This document shows positions 35,884-56,201 of a stretch of 64,000 nt of DNA, piece after piece. Location of the stretch: NCBI GenBank assembly GCA_017608025.1, contig JAFCGM010000003.1, positions 1-64,000 of the forward strand, in the 5' to 3' direction. This DNA comes from Candidatus Pacearchaeota archaeon. Its GTDB lineage: Archaea > Nanobdellota > Nanobdellia > UBA10117 > JABICX01. The notes below the pieces were generated by a model. The model was not told the origin of the DNA. It worked only from the letters and a program-made list of their open reading frames with translations, and searched no databases. How positions within the stretch are numbered: the stretch's first letter is position 1; each line of letters begins with the position of its first letter. The position numbers and the translations under genes were made by a program.

Positions 35884-36003
35884 AATAGAGTATTAATTAA
35901 GTAAAGGGTTTAAAAAGATTGCTAATTTCCTAAACTAACGCTGCACCATAAAATGTGTTTTCTAATCCTATCTATGTATAATAAAAACTCGTTTCATTTG
36001 AAT

Positions 36004-36040
36004 TTCTTTGAAAAAGAACCTCCACTAAGAAAAATAGTTT
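36004..36040 (-). repeat. Palindromic repeat family copy (divergent)
   Basis: Reverse strand CTATTTTTCTTAGTGGAGGTTCTTTTTCAAAGAAAT. Confidence 0.5.
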
Positions 36041-36090
36041 CTTTATCCAAAACTCTTATTTCCATTTTATCCTATCACGATTTTCATATC

Positions 36091-36130
36091 AGAGCCCTTT
36101 TGGAAAAAGCGCTCGCGGAAAAACTAGCCG
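36091..36130 (-). repeat. Palindromic repeat core between two copies of a nucleotidyltransferase gene tail
   Basis: Reverse strand CGGCTAGTTTTTCCGCGAGCGCTTTTTCCAAAAGGGCTCT; ATCACGATTTTCATATC at both 36074-36090 and 36131-36147. Confidence 0.85.
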
Positions 36131-37959
36131 ATCACGATTTTCATATCGTCTGCGAGGATTTTCTTCAGAGATTCAATTGTTTTCTTTGTCAGAATTGTTG
36201 GCTTTTCAGCAAACTTTGTAACTTCTTTATCCATCTCTGTAAGAGAAGAAGTTTTAGGGTTTTTTAATTCGCCAGATTTTGTAATAGCATATTTTCGAAT
36301 CTTGCTCTTTCCTTTTTCTTCATTTATTACAAAAGCTTTTTCACCAAGAAGCCAAAGTGTAGCGTTTTTCTTTCCTCGTTCATATTCAACTTTTACTTTG
36401 TATTTTTCAATCTTGCTTCCTTTTTCTGCGCGAATCATATTATAAATGTCGCGAATCATTTGGCTTTGCTCAAATCTAAGTGAAGCAATTTGCTGCCTTG
36501 TTGACTTTTTTGTCTTTTTCAGGTCTTGAATTTTTTTAAGCAAATCAAGATATCTTAAAGGGGCTAATTTCCTTTCAACAAGGTTTTTTCTGAACAAAGA
36601 GATAAGGTCTTTTTTGCAGACTTTTGAAATTCCAAGCATTGAAAGTGCTGCGCATGATTCTTCAAAGGATTTTTCATAAAGGTCGTCAATTGCTTCCTTT
36701 ACTTTTTCATCTTCAACTGTGTCCATGAGCTTGTCAAGCCTTTCAAGGTATTTTTCAATAAGAGGAAACATTTCCTGAACAGTTGAAATATCAACTTCCT
36801 TGATTTTTCCATATTCAATGTTCTTTCTAAGGTCGAGAATTTGCTTCCAAATCTTAAGATATTTTTCTTCTAAAAGTCCTTTTTTTACAAAAGCTTGCTC
36901 AAGCTGTGCTGCAACTTCCTTTGGCGCTCCAGGCGGAATTCCTGCCATCATTAAAGCACCTTGCGTTGGAGTGCATGTAGCCCAAAAAAAATCTTCCATT
37001 GCAATTTCCTTAAGCTTTGACTTTGTTCTCTCTAAAAGCTGTTTTCCTGATTTTGTATACTGGTCAACTGCTTCTGGCGAAGGAGTAATTTTTCCTTTTT
37101 TCAAGAGAAGCTTCCAAGGTGCGAACATTCCCCTGTCATAAAGAGGAATTCCGTCTCTTAAAAATGTAAAAATAACTGGGTGAGCGTTTTTGATTGAGTT
37201 CCACATGTCAGTTAAAACATAAACTTGTACATTAAGTTCGTTTTTAATTCCAGTTACTGCAGATGCTTCATGGGCAAACTGGTAAATCATTGACATTAGC
37301 CGTTGCTTTAGTTCTGAAGAAGTTAGCCTTGTAACATCAGTGTCATCAATAACAACATAAGTGTCAATGTCAGAGCCCTCAACAGCTGTTCCCCGAATCA
37401 AGGAACCGCCAATAACATAAGAAACAACATATTTCTCGAATTTACGCAGAACTTTCATTTTGTGGACTTCTGCAAGCTTCAATGCTGAAAGCATTCCTGT
37501 GTCATAAACAATATGACCCATTGCAATCATGCTAAGAATTTCATATTTTGACTTAAGACACATGTCCCAAAGCTCGTCAAGCAAAAGAAGATTAACTTCT
37601 TCGTTTTTCAAAGTTGAAGAAGCAATTTTCTGGACTTCTTTGTCAAATTCTGCTTTTTCCTTTAGCATGTCTGCGATATTGTCTGCTTTCTTTGATTTGA
37701 GAAAAACTATAATTTCAGGTTTTTGCTCAGATTTTTGGTTTGGCTGGGGCTGAGGTGGTGTGACAACAATTCCGAGAAGCTTTTTCTTGAATTTTGATTT
37801 TAATTTTTTCTGAAAATCTTTTTTTGCCTTTTTGGCAAGAGAATTCATTTGATTTTTTATTTTATCAGTTTTGTTTTTCTGATTTTCAAGTGTTGAAAGG
37901 TTTTTCTCAAAGCCCTTTTTTATTTCCTCAATTTCTTTTTCAGATAATTGCTTTGCCAT
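36124..37959 (-). CDS. Pol-beta-fold nucleotidyltransferase with helical C-terminal regions
   Basis: VIGGSLIRGTAVEGSDIDTYVVIDDTDV (GSx~10DxD-type). Confidence 0.8.
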   Translation of the reverse strand: MAKQLSEKEIEEIKKGFEKNLSTLENQKNKTDKIKNQMNSLAKKAKKDFQKKLKSKFKKKLLGIVVTPPQPQPNQKSEQKPEIIVFLKSKKADNIADMLKEKAEFDKEVQKIASSTLKNEEVNLLLLDELWDMCLKSKYEILSMIAMGHIVYDTGMLSALKLAEVHKMKVLRKFEKYVVSYVIGGSLIRGTAVEGSDIDTYVVIDDTDVTRLTSSELKQRLMSMIYQFAHEASAVTGIKNELNVQVYVLTDMWNSIKNAHPVIFTFLRDGIPLYDRGMFAPWKLLLKKGKITPSPEAVDQYTKSGKQLLERTKSKLKEIAMEDFFWATCTPTQGALMMAGIPPGAPKEVAAQLEQAFVKKGLLEEKYLKIWKQILDLRKNIEYGKIKEVDISTVQEMFPLIEKYLERLDKLMDTVEDEKVKEAIDDLYEKSFEESCAALSMLGISKVCKKDLISLFRKNLVERKLAPLRYLDLLKKIQDLKKTKKSTRQQIASLRFEQSQMIRDIYNMIRAEKGSKIEKYKVKVEYERGKKNATLWLLGEKAFVINEEKGKSKIRKYAITKSGELKNPKTSSLTEMDKEVTKFAEKPTILTKKTIESLKKILADDMKIVIG

Positions 37960-38438: not shown

Positions 38439-38497
38439 GTTTAGTTTCTTCTTTTATTATTTTTTTAATTTCTTTTTTTAATTTTTTTCATCTCATT

Positions 38498-38531
38498 CAG
38501 CACTTTTAGAAAAAGCTCTGGCGGAAAAATA
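38498..38531 (-). repeat. Palindromic repeat core between two copies of a nucleotidyltransferase gene tail
   Basis: Reverse strand GCTATTTTTCCGCCAGAGCTTTTTCTAAAAGTGCTG. Confidence 0.8.
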
Positions 38532-38539
38532 GCAAAAGT

Positions 38540-39391
38540 TTATTGTCTTTTTTCAATTATTTTTTTCATCTCTTTTGTGAATTTTTCAGCCAGTTTTTGA
38601 TATTCATCATACTGCTTTCCAGTGTAGCCGGCAACTTCCTTTCTAATTATTTTTTTTGATATAGTGTATAGCTTTTTTGCTATGTGAAAGTATTCTTCAT
38701 CAACATATCCTGGTTCCACAAGCTTTTTGTGAATCATATCTGCTATATAAGAAGGTGATGGTGGGATTTCTCCAATAGACATTAGTGCTGCGTGAGCTGA
38801 ATCAATCATTGCCCAGTACAAATCCACTATAGCCATGTCCATTCTCGACTTTGCCCTTTGGATGCTCGCTGGGGCCAGAGAATAATAAGTCCAGACAGAT
38901 TCTGCGCTTGGGCGGATTCTTCCATTGTAAAGAAGGACTTTCAAAGGTGCTATGAATCCCTGGTCAATCAAAGGAATTCCATCGCGAAGAATGTTTATTG
39001 CAACAGGATCTCCTGCGCGGACATATTCCCAAAATGAAGTCCAAGTCATAGTTTGAATGTGAAGCTTTTCAGGTGAAATTTTTGCAACAGTTTTTGCAAG
39101 GATTATTCTATATGTCTGAACAATTTCTTTGCTCATGCGCATTCCAACATCATCAATAATAATCAAAATATCAATATCATTTGTGGATGTTTCTCTTCTA
39201 GCGCTAGAGCCGAAAACAATAAGTCCTGCAATAAAGTCGCCCATCTCTTTGTAAATTGCCTTTGCAAAACGGTTTGCTATAGCTGAATCTGCTTTTGAAG
39301 GCAATTTCGCTTTTTTAATTTCATTTTTTGATTTCTTACTGAAGAAGCGATTTTTAATAACTTTAAATTTCATATATTGTTTTTTTAGCAT
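38540..39391 (-). CDS. Pol-beta-fold nucleotidyltransferase, paralogous to the 36124-37959 product
   Basis: LIVFGSSARRETSTNDIDILIIIDDV; shared IPL.D.G..AP.K.LL..G.I.PS.E.V segment. Confidence 0.82.
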   Translation of the reverse strand: MLKKQYMKFKVIKNRFFSKKSKNEIKKAKLPSKADSAIANRFAKAIYKEMGDFIAGLIVFGSSARRETSTNDIDILIIIDDVGMRMSKEIVQTYRIILAKTVAKISPEKLHIQTMTWTSFWEYVRAGDPVAINILRDGIPLIDQGFIAPLKVLLYNGRIRPSAESVWTYYSLAPASIQRAKSRMDMAIVDLYWAMIDSAHAALMSIGEIPPSPSYIADMIHKKLVEPGYVDEEYFHIAKKLYTISKKIIRKEVAGYTGKQYDEYQKLAEKFTKEMKKIIEKRQ

Positions 39392-39449: not shown

Positions 39450-39557
39450 AATTATTCCATTTGGAGCTCAGACCACAGCTAGAAAATCGGCTGGCGCTTT
39501 CAGTAGGTAAACAGAATACGATACCTGCAAGAATTATTCCATTGGGAGTTCAGACCA
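39450..39557 (-). repeat. Duplicated gene tail (39450-39475 and 39532-39557) flanking a repeat-core-like segment
   Basis: AATTATTCCATTTGGAGCTCAGACCA versus AATTATTCCATTGGGAGTTCAGACCA; intervening reverse strand CTGAAAGCGCCAGCCGATTTTCTAGCTG. Confidence 0.8.
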
Positions 39558-41411
39558 AAGGATCCATTCTTTTGGATTTGGAGTCATTTCTCCGAAAAGG
39601 TATTTTGGCATGTAAGTAAGGCCTGAATGCGTGTCAAGAACATCTGCTCCACCAACAATATCGCCGCCAATTCTGTAAATCGGGCTGTCCATTGTCCTTA
39701 AGGCAGCTCTTAGAGATTTGTGGTCAAAATGTCCTGGCTCAACAACAACCTTTCCTTTGTAATCAGATTTTTGGAGTTTTTCCATAAATTCTTTTATTGG
39801 AACATTTCCTTCGCCAATCATCTGATGGTCGTCAACATAGCCGAAGTTGTCTGACAAGTGGACATGGCCGAGAATTCCATCCTGCTTTAGCTTATCAACT
39901 TCCTTTAGAAGCCACTTGTTAAATTCCTTGTCGCTTCCCTGAAAGTATTTCCTCCAAGTATTGGCATGAGCAATATCAAAAGTTGCCTTTATATGGTCTT
40001 CTGCGATTTTTTTTGCCTTTGACTTTGAAATTCCTTTCTGGTAAAAAGGATTGTCAACTTTTCTTCCAGGCCGATTTGGCATCTCAACTTCTGTTTCTGT
40101 AAGAAGTTCAACCATCTTTTCTCTTGATTTCTGGATAATGTTTCTGAGTTCAGAAGGGTGTCCTCCATACTGCTCTGGGAAAATGTTTTCTGGTGCAACG
40201 AAAATCGGTTTTGAGTGATCTTTTTCTTTTTTCCAAGCATAATAGCCTAGCTGAGCGTAAGAGTCTGCTGACTTTTCAAGTGAAAAGTCCTTCATTGACT
40301 TTATTCGGTTTCTCTTATCTTCAATCTCTGCAATTCTTTCCCTAGCAGAAACTGAAGCTTCCTCATGATAGCTTATTCTTCTCTGGGTTTCCCAAAGCTT
40401 CTCTTTAAGATAATGAACTGGGTCCTTGTAATGCTCTGGTGGAATCAATTTTATTATTTCATGATCTCTAAGGTATGTTGTGAAGTCTTCTTCTTTTTTT
40501 AGATGTGGTTTTAATTTCTCCCATTCCTTAAGTGCTTCCTTAATTTTTTTCTCTGTTCTTTTTCCATGGTAAAATCCTGCTTCATATTCATCTGCCTGTC
40601 CCTTGAGATGCCAGTATTCAGCATCTAACTTGTCTTTATAGAACTCTTTTGCTGCTTCGTCAGGATCATTTTTTGTTTTTTTCATGTAATAATCCCAGTC
40701 CCTTGGCTCTGGCTTGAATATTCTCTTATCTTCATCCATTTCCGCTCGTTCATATGGAATTCCTGTAACTGCTTCTCTTTTTTCTTCTTCCCTTGGAACA
40801 ATGAAGTTTTTCTGGTCTTCCCTAACAGCTGCAATTTCTCCTGTTGTTTCATCAACAAGATAGTGTGTTGTCTTGTCTGTTTCCTTGTATCCCTCAAATT
40901 TGCGGAATTTTTCCCCCTCTTCTGCTTCTGTAATTGGTCTAGGAAATTCTTGGGCGTGAACTACAACTGCGCCGCCGTCTTCAGAAACATCAGCTGCAAA
41001 ATCAATTGTCCGTTTGACTTCTTTCATTGCATTGTCCCTTGTCTCTTCACTATATCCCTGCTGACCAAGGCCCGTCATTCCTCCTATTTGAGGAGTTGCG
41101 TGGACTGAAAGTGAAATCTTATTAATTCTTGCAAGTTCGCGCATAGCCTCTCGCTCCTGGCGGCCGTGCATCTCTGGGCTGATTTGGCCTTGTGCTGAGC
41201 CTTTCTGCATAGGGCTTGACATGAATCCAAGCTCTACGTGCTTTGCTCCCTGGAAAATCTTTGCCTTAAGTGATTCCAGCTGGTCCTTCATTGGCGGAGT
41301 TGAAATTCCAAGTCCTGCTGCATTCATTAATGGATTTGAGAAATAGTATGCTGCTTCTGCATTTTTGTCCATTGCATGCCAGTAATTTCCCGGGAGATTA
41401 TATTCTACCAT
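39534..41411 (-). CDS. Xylose isomerase/AP-endonuclease-2-like TIM-barrel protein with large internal insertion
   Basis: GAKHVELGFMSSP, VVVHAQEFPR, ATFDIAHANTW, GHVHLSDNFGYVDDHQMIGEGNVPIKEF, VVVEPGHFD. Confidence 0.75.
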   Translation of the reverse strand: MVEYNLPGNYWHAMDKNAEAAYYFSNPLMNAAGLGISTPPMKDQLESLKAKIFQGAKHVELGFMSSPMQKGSAQGQISPEMHGRQEREAMRELARINKISLSVHATPQIGGMTGLGQQGYSEETRDNAMKEVKRTIDFAADVSEDGGAVVVHAQEFPRPITEAEEGEKFRKFEGYKETDKTTHYLVDETTGEIAAVREDQKNFIVPREEEKREAVTGIPYERAEMDEDKRIFKPEPRDWDYYMKKTKNDPDEAAKEFYKDKLDAEYWHLKGQADEYEAGFYHGKRTEKKIKEALKEWEKLKPHLKKEEDFTTYLRDHEIIKLIPPEHYKDPVHYLKEKLWETQRRISYHEEASVSARERIAEIEDKRNRIKSMKDFSLEKSADSYAQLGYYAWKKEKDHSKPIFVAPENIFPEQYGGHPSELRNIIQKSREKMVELLTETEVEMPNRPGRKVDNPFYQKGISKSKAKKIAEDHIKATFDIAHANTWRKYFQGSDKEFNKWLLKEVDKLKQDGILGHVHLSDNFGYVDDHQMIGEGNVPIKEFMEKLQKSDYKGKVVVEPGHFDHKSLRAALRTMDSPIYRIGGDIVGGADVLDTHSGLTYMPKYLFGEMTPNPKEWILWSELPME

Positions 41412-54326: not shown

Positions 54327-54465
54327 GCGAAAGAAAGAAAACTAAAATGGTAAGGATAGCAATAATTGACAAGGAGAAGTTCAACAGCCTTTCTTTAAAA
54401 AAGAAACGCTGGCGAAAGAAAGAAAACTAAAATGGTAAGGATAGCAATAATTGACAAGGAGAAGT
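54327..54465 (+). repeat. Direct duplication of ABCE1 gene start (54327-54380 and 54412-54465) flanking a palindromic core
   Basis: 54-bp copies GCGAAAGAAAGAAAACTAAAATGGTAAGGATAGCAATAATTGACAAGGAGAAGT; insert TCAACAGCCTTTCTTTAAAAAAGAAACGCTG. Confidence 0.95.
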
Positions 54466-56201
54466 GCAATTCAAAGAAATGCAATCAGGAGTGCATTAAG
54501 TACTGTCCAGTCAATCGAACAGGAAAAGAATGCATTGTGCTAGACAGCAACAATAAGAAAGCAAAAATAGAAGAGGTTCTTTGCACCGGATGCGGAATTT
54601 GCGTAAAGAGGTGCCCTTTTGATGCTATATCAATAATCAATCTTCCTGAAGTTCTTAAAAAAGACCCTCTTTTTCGTTACGGACCAAATTCTTTTGAGCT
54701 TTTTCGGCTTCCAATTCCAAAAAAAGGAAAAGTTGTTGGAATTCTTGGGGCAAATGGAATTGGAAAATCAACTGCACTTGAAATTCTTTCAAATTTAATT
54801 AAAATCAATTTTGGAAATTTTGAAAAAGAAACCAAAGAAGAAGATATAATAAGATATTTTCGCGGCTCTGAGCTTCAGGATTATTTCAAAAAATTGTTTG
54901 AAAATAATACAAAAGTTTCCTACAAGCCGCAATATATTGACTTAATTCCAAAAAAATTCAAGGAAACAGCAGAAGAGCTTCTTCTGAAAAACTCAACAAA
55001 AAAAGAAGTTAAGGAAGTTTCTGAAAAATTTGGATTTAAGCATATTTTATCTAGAAAACTTGAACAGCTTTCTGGAGGGGAGTTGCAGAAGATTGCAATT
55101 GCTGCAACAGCAATGAAAGATGCAGACATTTATTTTTTTGATGAACCGAGCTCTTTTCTAGATATAAAAGAAAGAATCAAGATTGCAAAAATAATAAATG
55201 AGTTAGCTGAGAAAGGAAAAGCTGTTGTCATTATAGAACATGACTTAATAATTTTAGATTACTTGTCTGAGATTATTCACATTCTTTTTGGTAAAAAATC
55301 GTGCTATGGTGTTGTATCGCATCCTCTGTCTTCAAAAAACGGCATAAACACTTATCTTGACGGATTTTTAAAAGATGAGAATATTCGGTTTCGGGATGAG
55401 AAAATATCATTTAGGCACAGCTCTTCAGAAAAAAAAATTGGGATTAATATTATTGCAAAATGGCCTGAAATTGAAAAGAAATTAAGTTCATTTAAATTAA
55501 CTGCTGAGGGCTCTGAGATATATGAAAAAGAAATTGTCGGAGTAATTGGTGCAAATGGCATTGGAAAGACAACTCTACTGAAGATAATTGCAGGACAGCT
55601 CAAAGCAGATAAAGGCAAGGTTCCAGGAAAGCTTAAAATTTCATACAAAGAGCAGTATATTTCTCCGCAGAAAAACAAAACTGTCAGAGAAGTATTATCA
55701 AAAGTCAACAAGAATTACCTTAGTCAGAAAAATAAGATTGAGATTCTGGCACCGCTTGAAATTGAATCTTTGTTTGAGAAAAAGCTTGAAAAAATTTCTG
55801 GTGGGGAATTGCAAAGGGTTGCAATTGCAGTTTGCTTGCTTCAGGATGCTGACTTGTATCTTCTTGATGAACCTTCTAATTATCTTGATATTGAGCAAAG
55901 ACTGCGTGCAAGTCGGGCAATTCATAGAGTCATAAAAAACAAAGAAGCTGCAGGAATTGTAATTGACCATGATTTGCTTTTTATAAATTACTTATCTGAC
56001 AGAATTTTGAGTTTTGATGGTGAGCCTGCAGTAACTGGCAGGGCAAAGAAAATTGCAAACATAAAAGATGGAATGAATTCCTTTCTTAAGGAGCTCAATA
56101 TTACATTGAGAAATGACGAGCATTCTAAAAGGCCGAGAGTAAATAAAATCAACAGCCAAAAAGATAAAGAGCAAAGGAAAAAAGGAATATATTATGCTTA
56201 G
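54432..56201 (+). CDS. ABCE1/Rli1 ribosome recycling factor
   Basis: Two 4Fe-4S motifs, two P-loops (GANGIGKSTALEIL, GANGIGKTTLLKII), two ABC signatures (LSGGELQK, ISGGELQR). Confidence 0.96.
   Translation: MVRIAIIDKEKCNSKKCNQECIKYCPVNRTGKECIVLDSNNKKAKIEEVLCTGCGICVKRCPFDAISIINLPEVLKKDPLFRYGPNSFELFRLPIPKKGKVVGILGANGIGKSTALEILSNLIKINFGNFEKETKEEDIIRYFRGSELQDYFKKLFENNTKVSYKPQYIDLIPKKFKETAEELLLKNSTKKEVKEVSEKFGFKHILSRKLEQLSGGELQKIAIAATAMKDADIYFFDEPSSFLDIKERIKIAKIINELAEKGKAVVIIEHDLIILDYLSEIIHILFGKKSCYGVVSHPLSSKNGINTYLDGFLKDENIRFRDEKISFRHSSSEKKIGINIIAKWPEIEKKLSSFKLTAEGSEIYEKEIVGVIGANGIGKTTLLKIIAGQLKADKGKVPGKLKISYKEQYISPQKNKTVREVLSKVNKNYLSQKNKIEILAPLEIESLFEKKLEKISGGELQRVAIAVCLLQDADLYLLDEPSNYLDIEQRLRASRAIHRVIKNKEAAGIVIDHDLLFINYLSDRILSFDGEPAVTGRAKKIANIKDGMNSFLKELNITLRNDEHSKRPRVNKINSQKDKEQRKKGIYYA

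Follow-up and report, generated by a model that had tools for sequence, protein, structure and literature searches.

The duplicated tail of a nucleotidyltransferase-like gene in a Candidatus Pacearchaeota archaeon is probably the trace of a non-autonomous mobile hairpin, here called E1, which would have inserted at the 3' end of the gene with a long direct duplication of its target, the live tail diverging afterwards as coding sequence. The locus lies in a window of 64,000 nucleotides (contig JAFCGM010000003.1, positions 1 to 64,000, assembly GCA_017608025.1). The same tail-hairpin-tail arrangement (T-E-T) occurs at dozens of loci with a precise junction at the 3' foot of the hairpin, the inserted unit is absent in relatives, and E1 itself is widespread, with outer stem pairs that covary.

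The duplicated gene tail

Read on the minus strand, the gene (36124-37959) encodes 611 amino acids with a match to NTP_transf_2 (PF01909, 24 bits, above the cut-off) and ends in the live tail DMKIVIG-TAG, the left copy (GATATGAAAATCGTGATCGGCTAG, 36124-36147). There follow, on the same strand, the 33-nt E1 element (TTTTTCCGCGAGCGCTTTTTCCAAAAGGGCTCT, 36091-36123, that is, TTTTTCCGC-GAGC-G-CTTTT-TCC-AAAAG-G-GCTC-T) and a displaced tail, DMKIVIG-TAA, the right copy (GATATGAAAATCGTGATAGGATAA, 36067-36090), which runs on into what appears to be the ancestral downstream sequence. The two copies, of 24 nt each, are identical over their first 17 nt; the three differences are confined to the last seven and are all silent (ATC/ATA, GGC/GGA, TAG/TAA), so that re-reading the minus strand bears out the preliminary description of a tail duplicated with a different stop codon and three silent changes. 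That description had placed the repeat at 36074-36160, which is shifted, the arrangement occupying 36067-36147. The repeated unit is indeed 57 bp long at this locus, but its dispersed, mobile part is only the hairpin of about 31-33 bp, the 24-bp tail being locus-specific. The last seven nucleotides of the tail, four of which match, could be partly filler shaped by selection.

Chance is excluded as the source of the tail repeat by two controls: the core (36091-36123) has 0 expected matches in shuffled sequence, and the tail pair scores 18, for which re-pairing of tails with the downstream regions of other genes gives an expectation of 0.00 already at a score of 15. The same genome holds two further exact copies of the last 32 nt of this E1 with the adjoining G, one at C28:93785 and one at C8:60552. 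A tandem duplication of tail plus hairpin at 36067-36147 was rejected, as the second tail is not directly followed by another E1.

A parallel case at ychF had been proposed, yet no ychF gene with such an arrangement was found in the window, which holds instead two further tail duplications and one duplicated gene start. The three tail-duplicated genes are adjacent. In the neighbouring nucleotidyltransferase-like gene (38540-39391), also on the minus strand, the live tail EMKKIIEKRQ* (38540-38572) is followed by E1 (TTTTCCGCCAGAGCTTTTTCTAAAAGTGCTGAA, 38496-38528) and by a partly degenerate displaced copy, EMKKIKKRN* (38465-38494). In the next gene (39534-41411), on the same strand, the live tail LWSELPME* (39534-39560) and its displaced copy LWSELQME* (39452-39478) enclose a hairpin of another family (CAGGTATCGTATTCTGTTTACCT...GCGCCAGCCGATTTTCTAG, 39479-39533). 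The duplicated start belongs to a gene at 54432-56201, ABCE1-like by its domains, at whose 5' end direct repeats of 58 bp with one mismatch surround an E2 hairpin (54327-54469, plus strand). A second, older-looking hairpin element of a further family (E5-like, TTTTCTTAGTGGAGGTTCTTTTTCAAAGAAATTC, repeat family D1) lies beside the main locus, at 36000-36033 on the minus strand.

State of the locus in relatives

The orthologue of the 611-residue gene was found in 35 of 37 genomes searched, the nearest relatives compared being other genera of the same family, and C-terminal ends were displayed for 29 loci of other genomes. None of the 29 carries the core after the gene, in keeping with the expectation that the 57-bp unit would be lacking from close relatives; nor does any displayed orthologue have the longer arrangement as an ancestral state, which would have told against an insertion. 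Orthologues with a conserved C-terminus end in (D)xKIVIG(A), the stop codon following directly. The end of the gene in one relative (G006) reads gatatgaaattagtggtaggtTAAaatgga, and the right copy in the window reads ...ataggaTAAaatgga. This end matches the right copy and its continuation; the downstream TAA copy thus looks ancestral, and the left tail plus the core would be the unit gained. Comparison of the gene ends therefore supports reading the 57-bp unit as an insertion.

Recurrence throughout the genome

The genome of the window (hereafter G000) is a 700-kb draft in 34 contigs, about 86-92% complete, of which 600.9 kb (five contigs) were analysed. The last codons are repeated within 230 nt downstream in 31 of its 624 ORFs, against 0.00 expected after re-pairing of tails and downstream regions; near direct-repeat pairs number 98, and none occurs in a Markov control. 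Among 108 regions with dispersed elements, 38 have a flank repeat scoring at least 16, whereas re-pairing the flanks of different regions leaves a proportion of 0.6%. Direct-repeat pairs are much scarcer in most of the relatives sampled.

What separates the two copies is, in most cases, a hairpin belonging to one of several families. Among the 73 repeat pairs, of 16-70 bp, 51 are identical. One junction is fixed, the second copy beginning 0-4 nt past the 3' foot of the hairpin in 20 of 31 cases; the other (5') junction is variable, with an offset of up to 94 nt and sometimes filler or further hairpins. Gene starts, such as that of the ABCE1-like gene, and tRNA 3' ends are duplicated as well. 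At the tRNA targets (C21:18314, 21556, 25605, 26096; C28:46679) the duplication extends from the T-loop (GGTTC/AAATCC) through the 3' end and leaves an intact tRNA upstream, as integrative elements do. A mismatch gradient along the repeats was suspected and dropped as inconsistent.

Elements show no preferred orientation with respect to neighbouring genes (16 ++ vs 14 --). They are also scarce in divergent promoter regions (2 of 47, vs 23% expected), and both traits are as for tolerated insertions. Tandem (T+E) arrays exist at some loci, namely C28:80809 and C26:55344. An E1 subtype (TTTTCCGCAGCCGCTTTTTCTAAAAGGGGCTTTTTTC) also forms 37-bp tandem arrays, at the contig ends C21:1-95 and C8:9-115 and inside a contig at C28:80809-80952.

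Several hairpin families have long forms with some 28 extra nucleotides, often hairpin-GCC-hairpin, which sit at one shared position in the 5' arm (CAG/CG), for example, among many loci, at C28:9405, C26:39950 and C28:168445; it is as if the families shared one branched architecture. In all hairpin families of this genome the 5' leader resembles the 3' arm, a purine tract turned to pyrimidines (e.g. TTTCTTTGGGCA vs AAAGAAAGGGCA), a likeness of sequence that may point to competing pairing or a triple helix.

Anatomy and range of E1

The E1 consensus, TTTTCCGY-NNNC-G-CTTTT-TCY-AAAAG-G-GNNN, consists of a conserved pyrimidine leader and a hairpin whose stem has a G.G mismatch and whose loop is 3 nt long. 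Its three outer stem pairs covary, with 43 double-change cells vs 13.8+-3.1 in shuffled data (reached in 0 of 500 shuffles). When the outer positions were left free in the search pattern, 42 of the 45 cells in 15 distinct arm combinations pair; 26.5 were expected, and the highest count in 2000 shuffles was 35.

A scan of 84,980 genomes with the exact pattern returned E1 in 67 stretches, all labelled archaeal but two; these two belong to one MAG labelled Pseudomonadota, and their flanks resemble Altiarchaeota copies. The lineages include Methanophagales, Aenigmarchaeota, Nano-, Woese- and Parvarchaeota, Altiarchaeota, Thermoplasmata, Bathyarchaeota and Nitrosotalea. Within the same class, a covariance model places E1 in 35 of 280 genomes, with up to 27 copies per genome; G000, G025, G052, G066, G143 and G266 are rich in it, and relatives from their families are free of it. 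The exact pattern is absent from IMG/VR, where viral carriers were looked for, and an Rfam search gave no matching family other than tRNA. Most copies outside the class have no flanking repeat. T-E-T with an offset of 0 is found at three copies in other genomes, two in G030 (of 36 bp and 19 bp) and one in G045; the latter (L257) repeats the finding exactly, with NKDWID-TGA, E1 and NKDWID-TAA and one silent change.

E1 occupies intergenic DNA as well as tRNA introns and long open frames. Thirteen of 68 pattern matches fall inside an open frame of at least 150 codons, a count made without systematic alignment to uninserted homologues; we take some of the ORFs to encode AdoMet synthetase (L122, L154), prolyl-tRNA synthetase (L143) and IS200 TnpA (L113, L119, L172). 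E1 is there in frame and antisense, adding residues such as NPFRKSVYGKM or TLLEKAFTEK. In Aenigmarchaeota, Woesearchaeota and Nanoarchaeota it is found within introns of tRNA genes, in the anticodon loop or D-arm, for the most part in antisense orientation to the tRNA. These loci (L112:2849-2958, L132:1911-2027, L229, L235, L236, L245, L246, L120 and L141) rest on ARAGORN intron calls or, for L112 and L132, on Rfam tRNA matches; L120 and L141 apparently have two E1 per tRNA gene. Folds of two E1-bearing tRNAs demonstrated no bulge-helix-bulge (BHB) motif.

Silent differences between live and displaced tails

The silent changes, regarded as meaningful in the preliminary description, prove to be so genome-wide. 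In a small set of twelve coding pairs with differences (eleven from G000, one from G045), some of whose boundaries were drawn by eye to the hairpin foot, the codon differences are 34 synonymous, stop-to-stop changes included, and 12 non-synonymous. A null model, in which the displaced copy drifts neutrally and the live copy changes only silently at the same rate, expects 14.7+-3.1 synonymous differences, and 34 was reached in 0 of 1500 simulations; with stop codons and the DMKIVIG locus left out, 24 stand against 11.8+-2.7 expected (again 0 of 1500). Plain neutral decay of a dead copy is thereby rejected as the cause of the silent changes in the twelve pairs, and the excess indicates that divergence of the live tail as coding sequence has far outpaced decay of the dead one.

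The pair at C21:47671 has nine synonymous differences and one other, CGT/AGA and CTT/TTG among them. At C8:53311, where three tails are present, the two fossils differ from each other by 6 nt and from the live copy by 10 and 14 (hand count); the fossils being closest to each other, the live copy is the outlier. As to the stop codons, they differ in eight of the twelve coding pairs, the live one then always being TAG or TGA and the displaced one TAA in seven of the eight, although TAA is the commonest stop of the genome.

Proposed mechanism and alternatives

On the reading favoured here, a copy of E1 would enter the 3' end of the nucleotidyltransferase-like gene and duplicate its target, over 24 bp in this case and 16-70 bp elsewhere. 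Fill-in after a staggered break or nick may have produced the repeats, which would then be a target-site duplication, and folding of the hairpin in single-stranded DNA may matter for its mobility. Because the duplication spans the gene end, tail and stop codon stay intact in the upstream copy, which makes the insertion harmless. Its counterpart would remain as a displaced fossil, close to the state at insertion, and the live tail would diverge later as coding sequence, probably through replacement by a diverged allele. Duplications of such variable length, 16-70 bp, are unusual among known DNA transposons.

A candidate mobiliser was sought among three enzyme families. Neither reverse transcriptase (RVT_1) nor the HUH-Y1 transposase (Y1_Tnp, PF01797) was found in G000, G030 and G045, PF01797 being present in another genome, G264; cas1 (PF01867) was found neither in G000 nor in any of the 11 relatives searched. 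As far as these families go, reverse transcriptase, Cas1 and HUH-Y1 transposase were thus not found in the T-E-T genomes, an absence that, at a completeness of about 86-92% for G000, is no proof. No long autonomous version of the element occurs in 601 of the 700 kb of G000. The genome does encode a XerA-like tyrosine recombinase; one further match was weaker.

The main rival to duplication with allele replacement is that the inserted piece consisted of a gene tail plus hairpin from a diverged relative, which paired with the homologous gene end; the native tail would then be the displaced one, and the live tail foreign. The predominance of synonymous differences (34 against 12, far beyond the simulated range) speaks for such an origin, as do the pair at C21:47671 and the spread of E1 across the domain. 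Every target, though, would need a matching tail, non-coding targets and tRNA ends are duplicated as well, and the 51 identical pairs out of 73 are not expected of a foreign tail; I consider this origin unlikely. The synonymous excess could also mean that both tails are in use and both under selection, the hairpin and one tail being removed from RNA or DNA in some molecules or cells. E1 does lie in tRNA genes with ARAGORN-called introns and in Rfam tRNA matches (L112, L132), and transcripts of tRNA genes so called are presumably spliced. The unspliced gene, however, already encodes the full protein, so that removal brings no gain; no BHB motif has been demonstrated at the DMKIVIG locus; and the fossils T2 and T3 at C8:53311 differ by two synonymous and three non-synonymous changes, as for an unused copy. 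Joint use of the two tails is accordingly given a very low probability.

The hairpin may also have arisen in place, without transposition, and provoked a duplication of its flank through slipped replication or a template switch. Slippage is known to occur at hairpins, tandem (T+E) arrays exist at C28:80809 and C26:55344, and no tested transposase family was found. Identical E1 copies at unrelated loci, and the same hairpin in many archaeal lineages, nevertheless make an origin in place improbable, and at the DMKIVIG locus the second tail lacks the adjoining E1 that a tandem duplication would leave. It is scarcely credible, finally, that many genes share the hairpin as a working transcription terminator or 3'-processing signal, with incidental tail repeats. 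The hairpin often follows stop codons and contains T-runs, yet copies lie inside ORFs and tRNA genes and the direct repeats are left unexplained; the lack of any orientation preference led to its rejection as the main explanation.

Insertion of E1 with duplication of its target may tentatively be extended, although this wider reading is rather doubtful, to a pan-archaeal hairpin parasite of about 31 nt, with no recognisable transposase, integrase or reverse transcriptase, which would enter staggered breaks by way of host repair. Its long duplications would spare gene and tRNA ends, and the paired tails would record silent substitution or allele exchange in the live copy against a frozen displaced one.

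Comparison with known systems

Small hairpin repeats are already known in bacteria and mitochondria. No description of the E1 family, or of small prokaryotic elements with 16-70 bp target duplications, was found in the literature, which offers analogies only; E1 apparently represents an undescribed family of mobile archaeal hairpins with long and variable target duplications. If so, it would be an unrecognised mobile element of Archaea, reaching tRNA introns and essential protein genes, and the question arises of how it is mobilised where the usual enzymes are missing. Each pair of tails, moreover, sets a coding version of a few codons next to a non-coding one, so that codon evolution and allele replacement become measurable in uncultured archaea.

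Rickettsia palindromic elements (RPE) insert in frame into ORFs, and E1 too lies in long open frames. REP elements and REPINs mobilised by RAYT (HUH transposases of the IS200/IS605 type) share with E1 a hairpin of 20-40 nt, a conserved 5' single-strand leader, a stem mismatch and many dispersed copies; E1 differs in its long target duplications, in the lack of Y1_Tnp in G000, G030 and G045, and in having no GTAG tag, neither GTAG nor CGTC being a fixed terminal tetranucleotide in its alignment, where the leader is TTTTCCGY. Like E1, RPE and the CGTC-type REPs are short hairpin repeats without a dedicated transposase (PMC3733652); E1 departs from them in being archaeal, in lacking a fixed CGTC tag and in its long direct target duplications. 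Prokaryotic MITEs are short, non-autonomous, multicopy and intergenic, with direct-repeat flanks when young (PMC10969869). The E1 class is alike in all these respects and differs in having no usual terminal inverted repeat, no autonomous partner found in the 601 kb analysed and a duplication length that varies widely (16-70 bp), where a classical MITE has a fixed one.

The att duplications of integrative elements that rebuild a gene or tRNA 3' end likewise pair an intact end upstream with a displaced one downstream, and the two sometimes differ at synonymous positions; several T-E-T targets are tRNA T-loops; E1, however, has no integrase cargo, and it is the duplicated sequence that differs from locus to locus, the element staying the same. 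A retroposon inserted by target-primed reverse transcription would give a similar junction pattern, one end fixed and one variable, but RVT_1 is missing from the three T-E-T genomes, as is cas1, needed for integration of the CRISPR or casposon type, from G000. As to a mobile archaeal BHB intron, E1 does lie inside several tRNA introns, and the folds of two of the tRNAs demonstrated no BHB motif.

The mobile GC clusters and repetitive hairpin elements of mitochondria (yeast, sponges, Allomyces) are also tiny GC-rich hairpins of constrained structure in AT-rich intergenic DNA. In yeast the clusters have very short flanking repeats, AG or ACT (PMC4478555), against 16-70 bp in the E1 class, and E1 resides on an archaeal chromosome. 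E1, though it fails the tested defining features of REP/RAYT elements and classical MITEs, works like the RPE and REP elements or the mitochondrial GC clusters.
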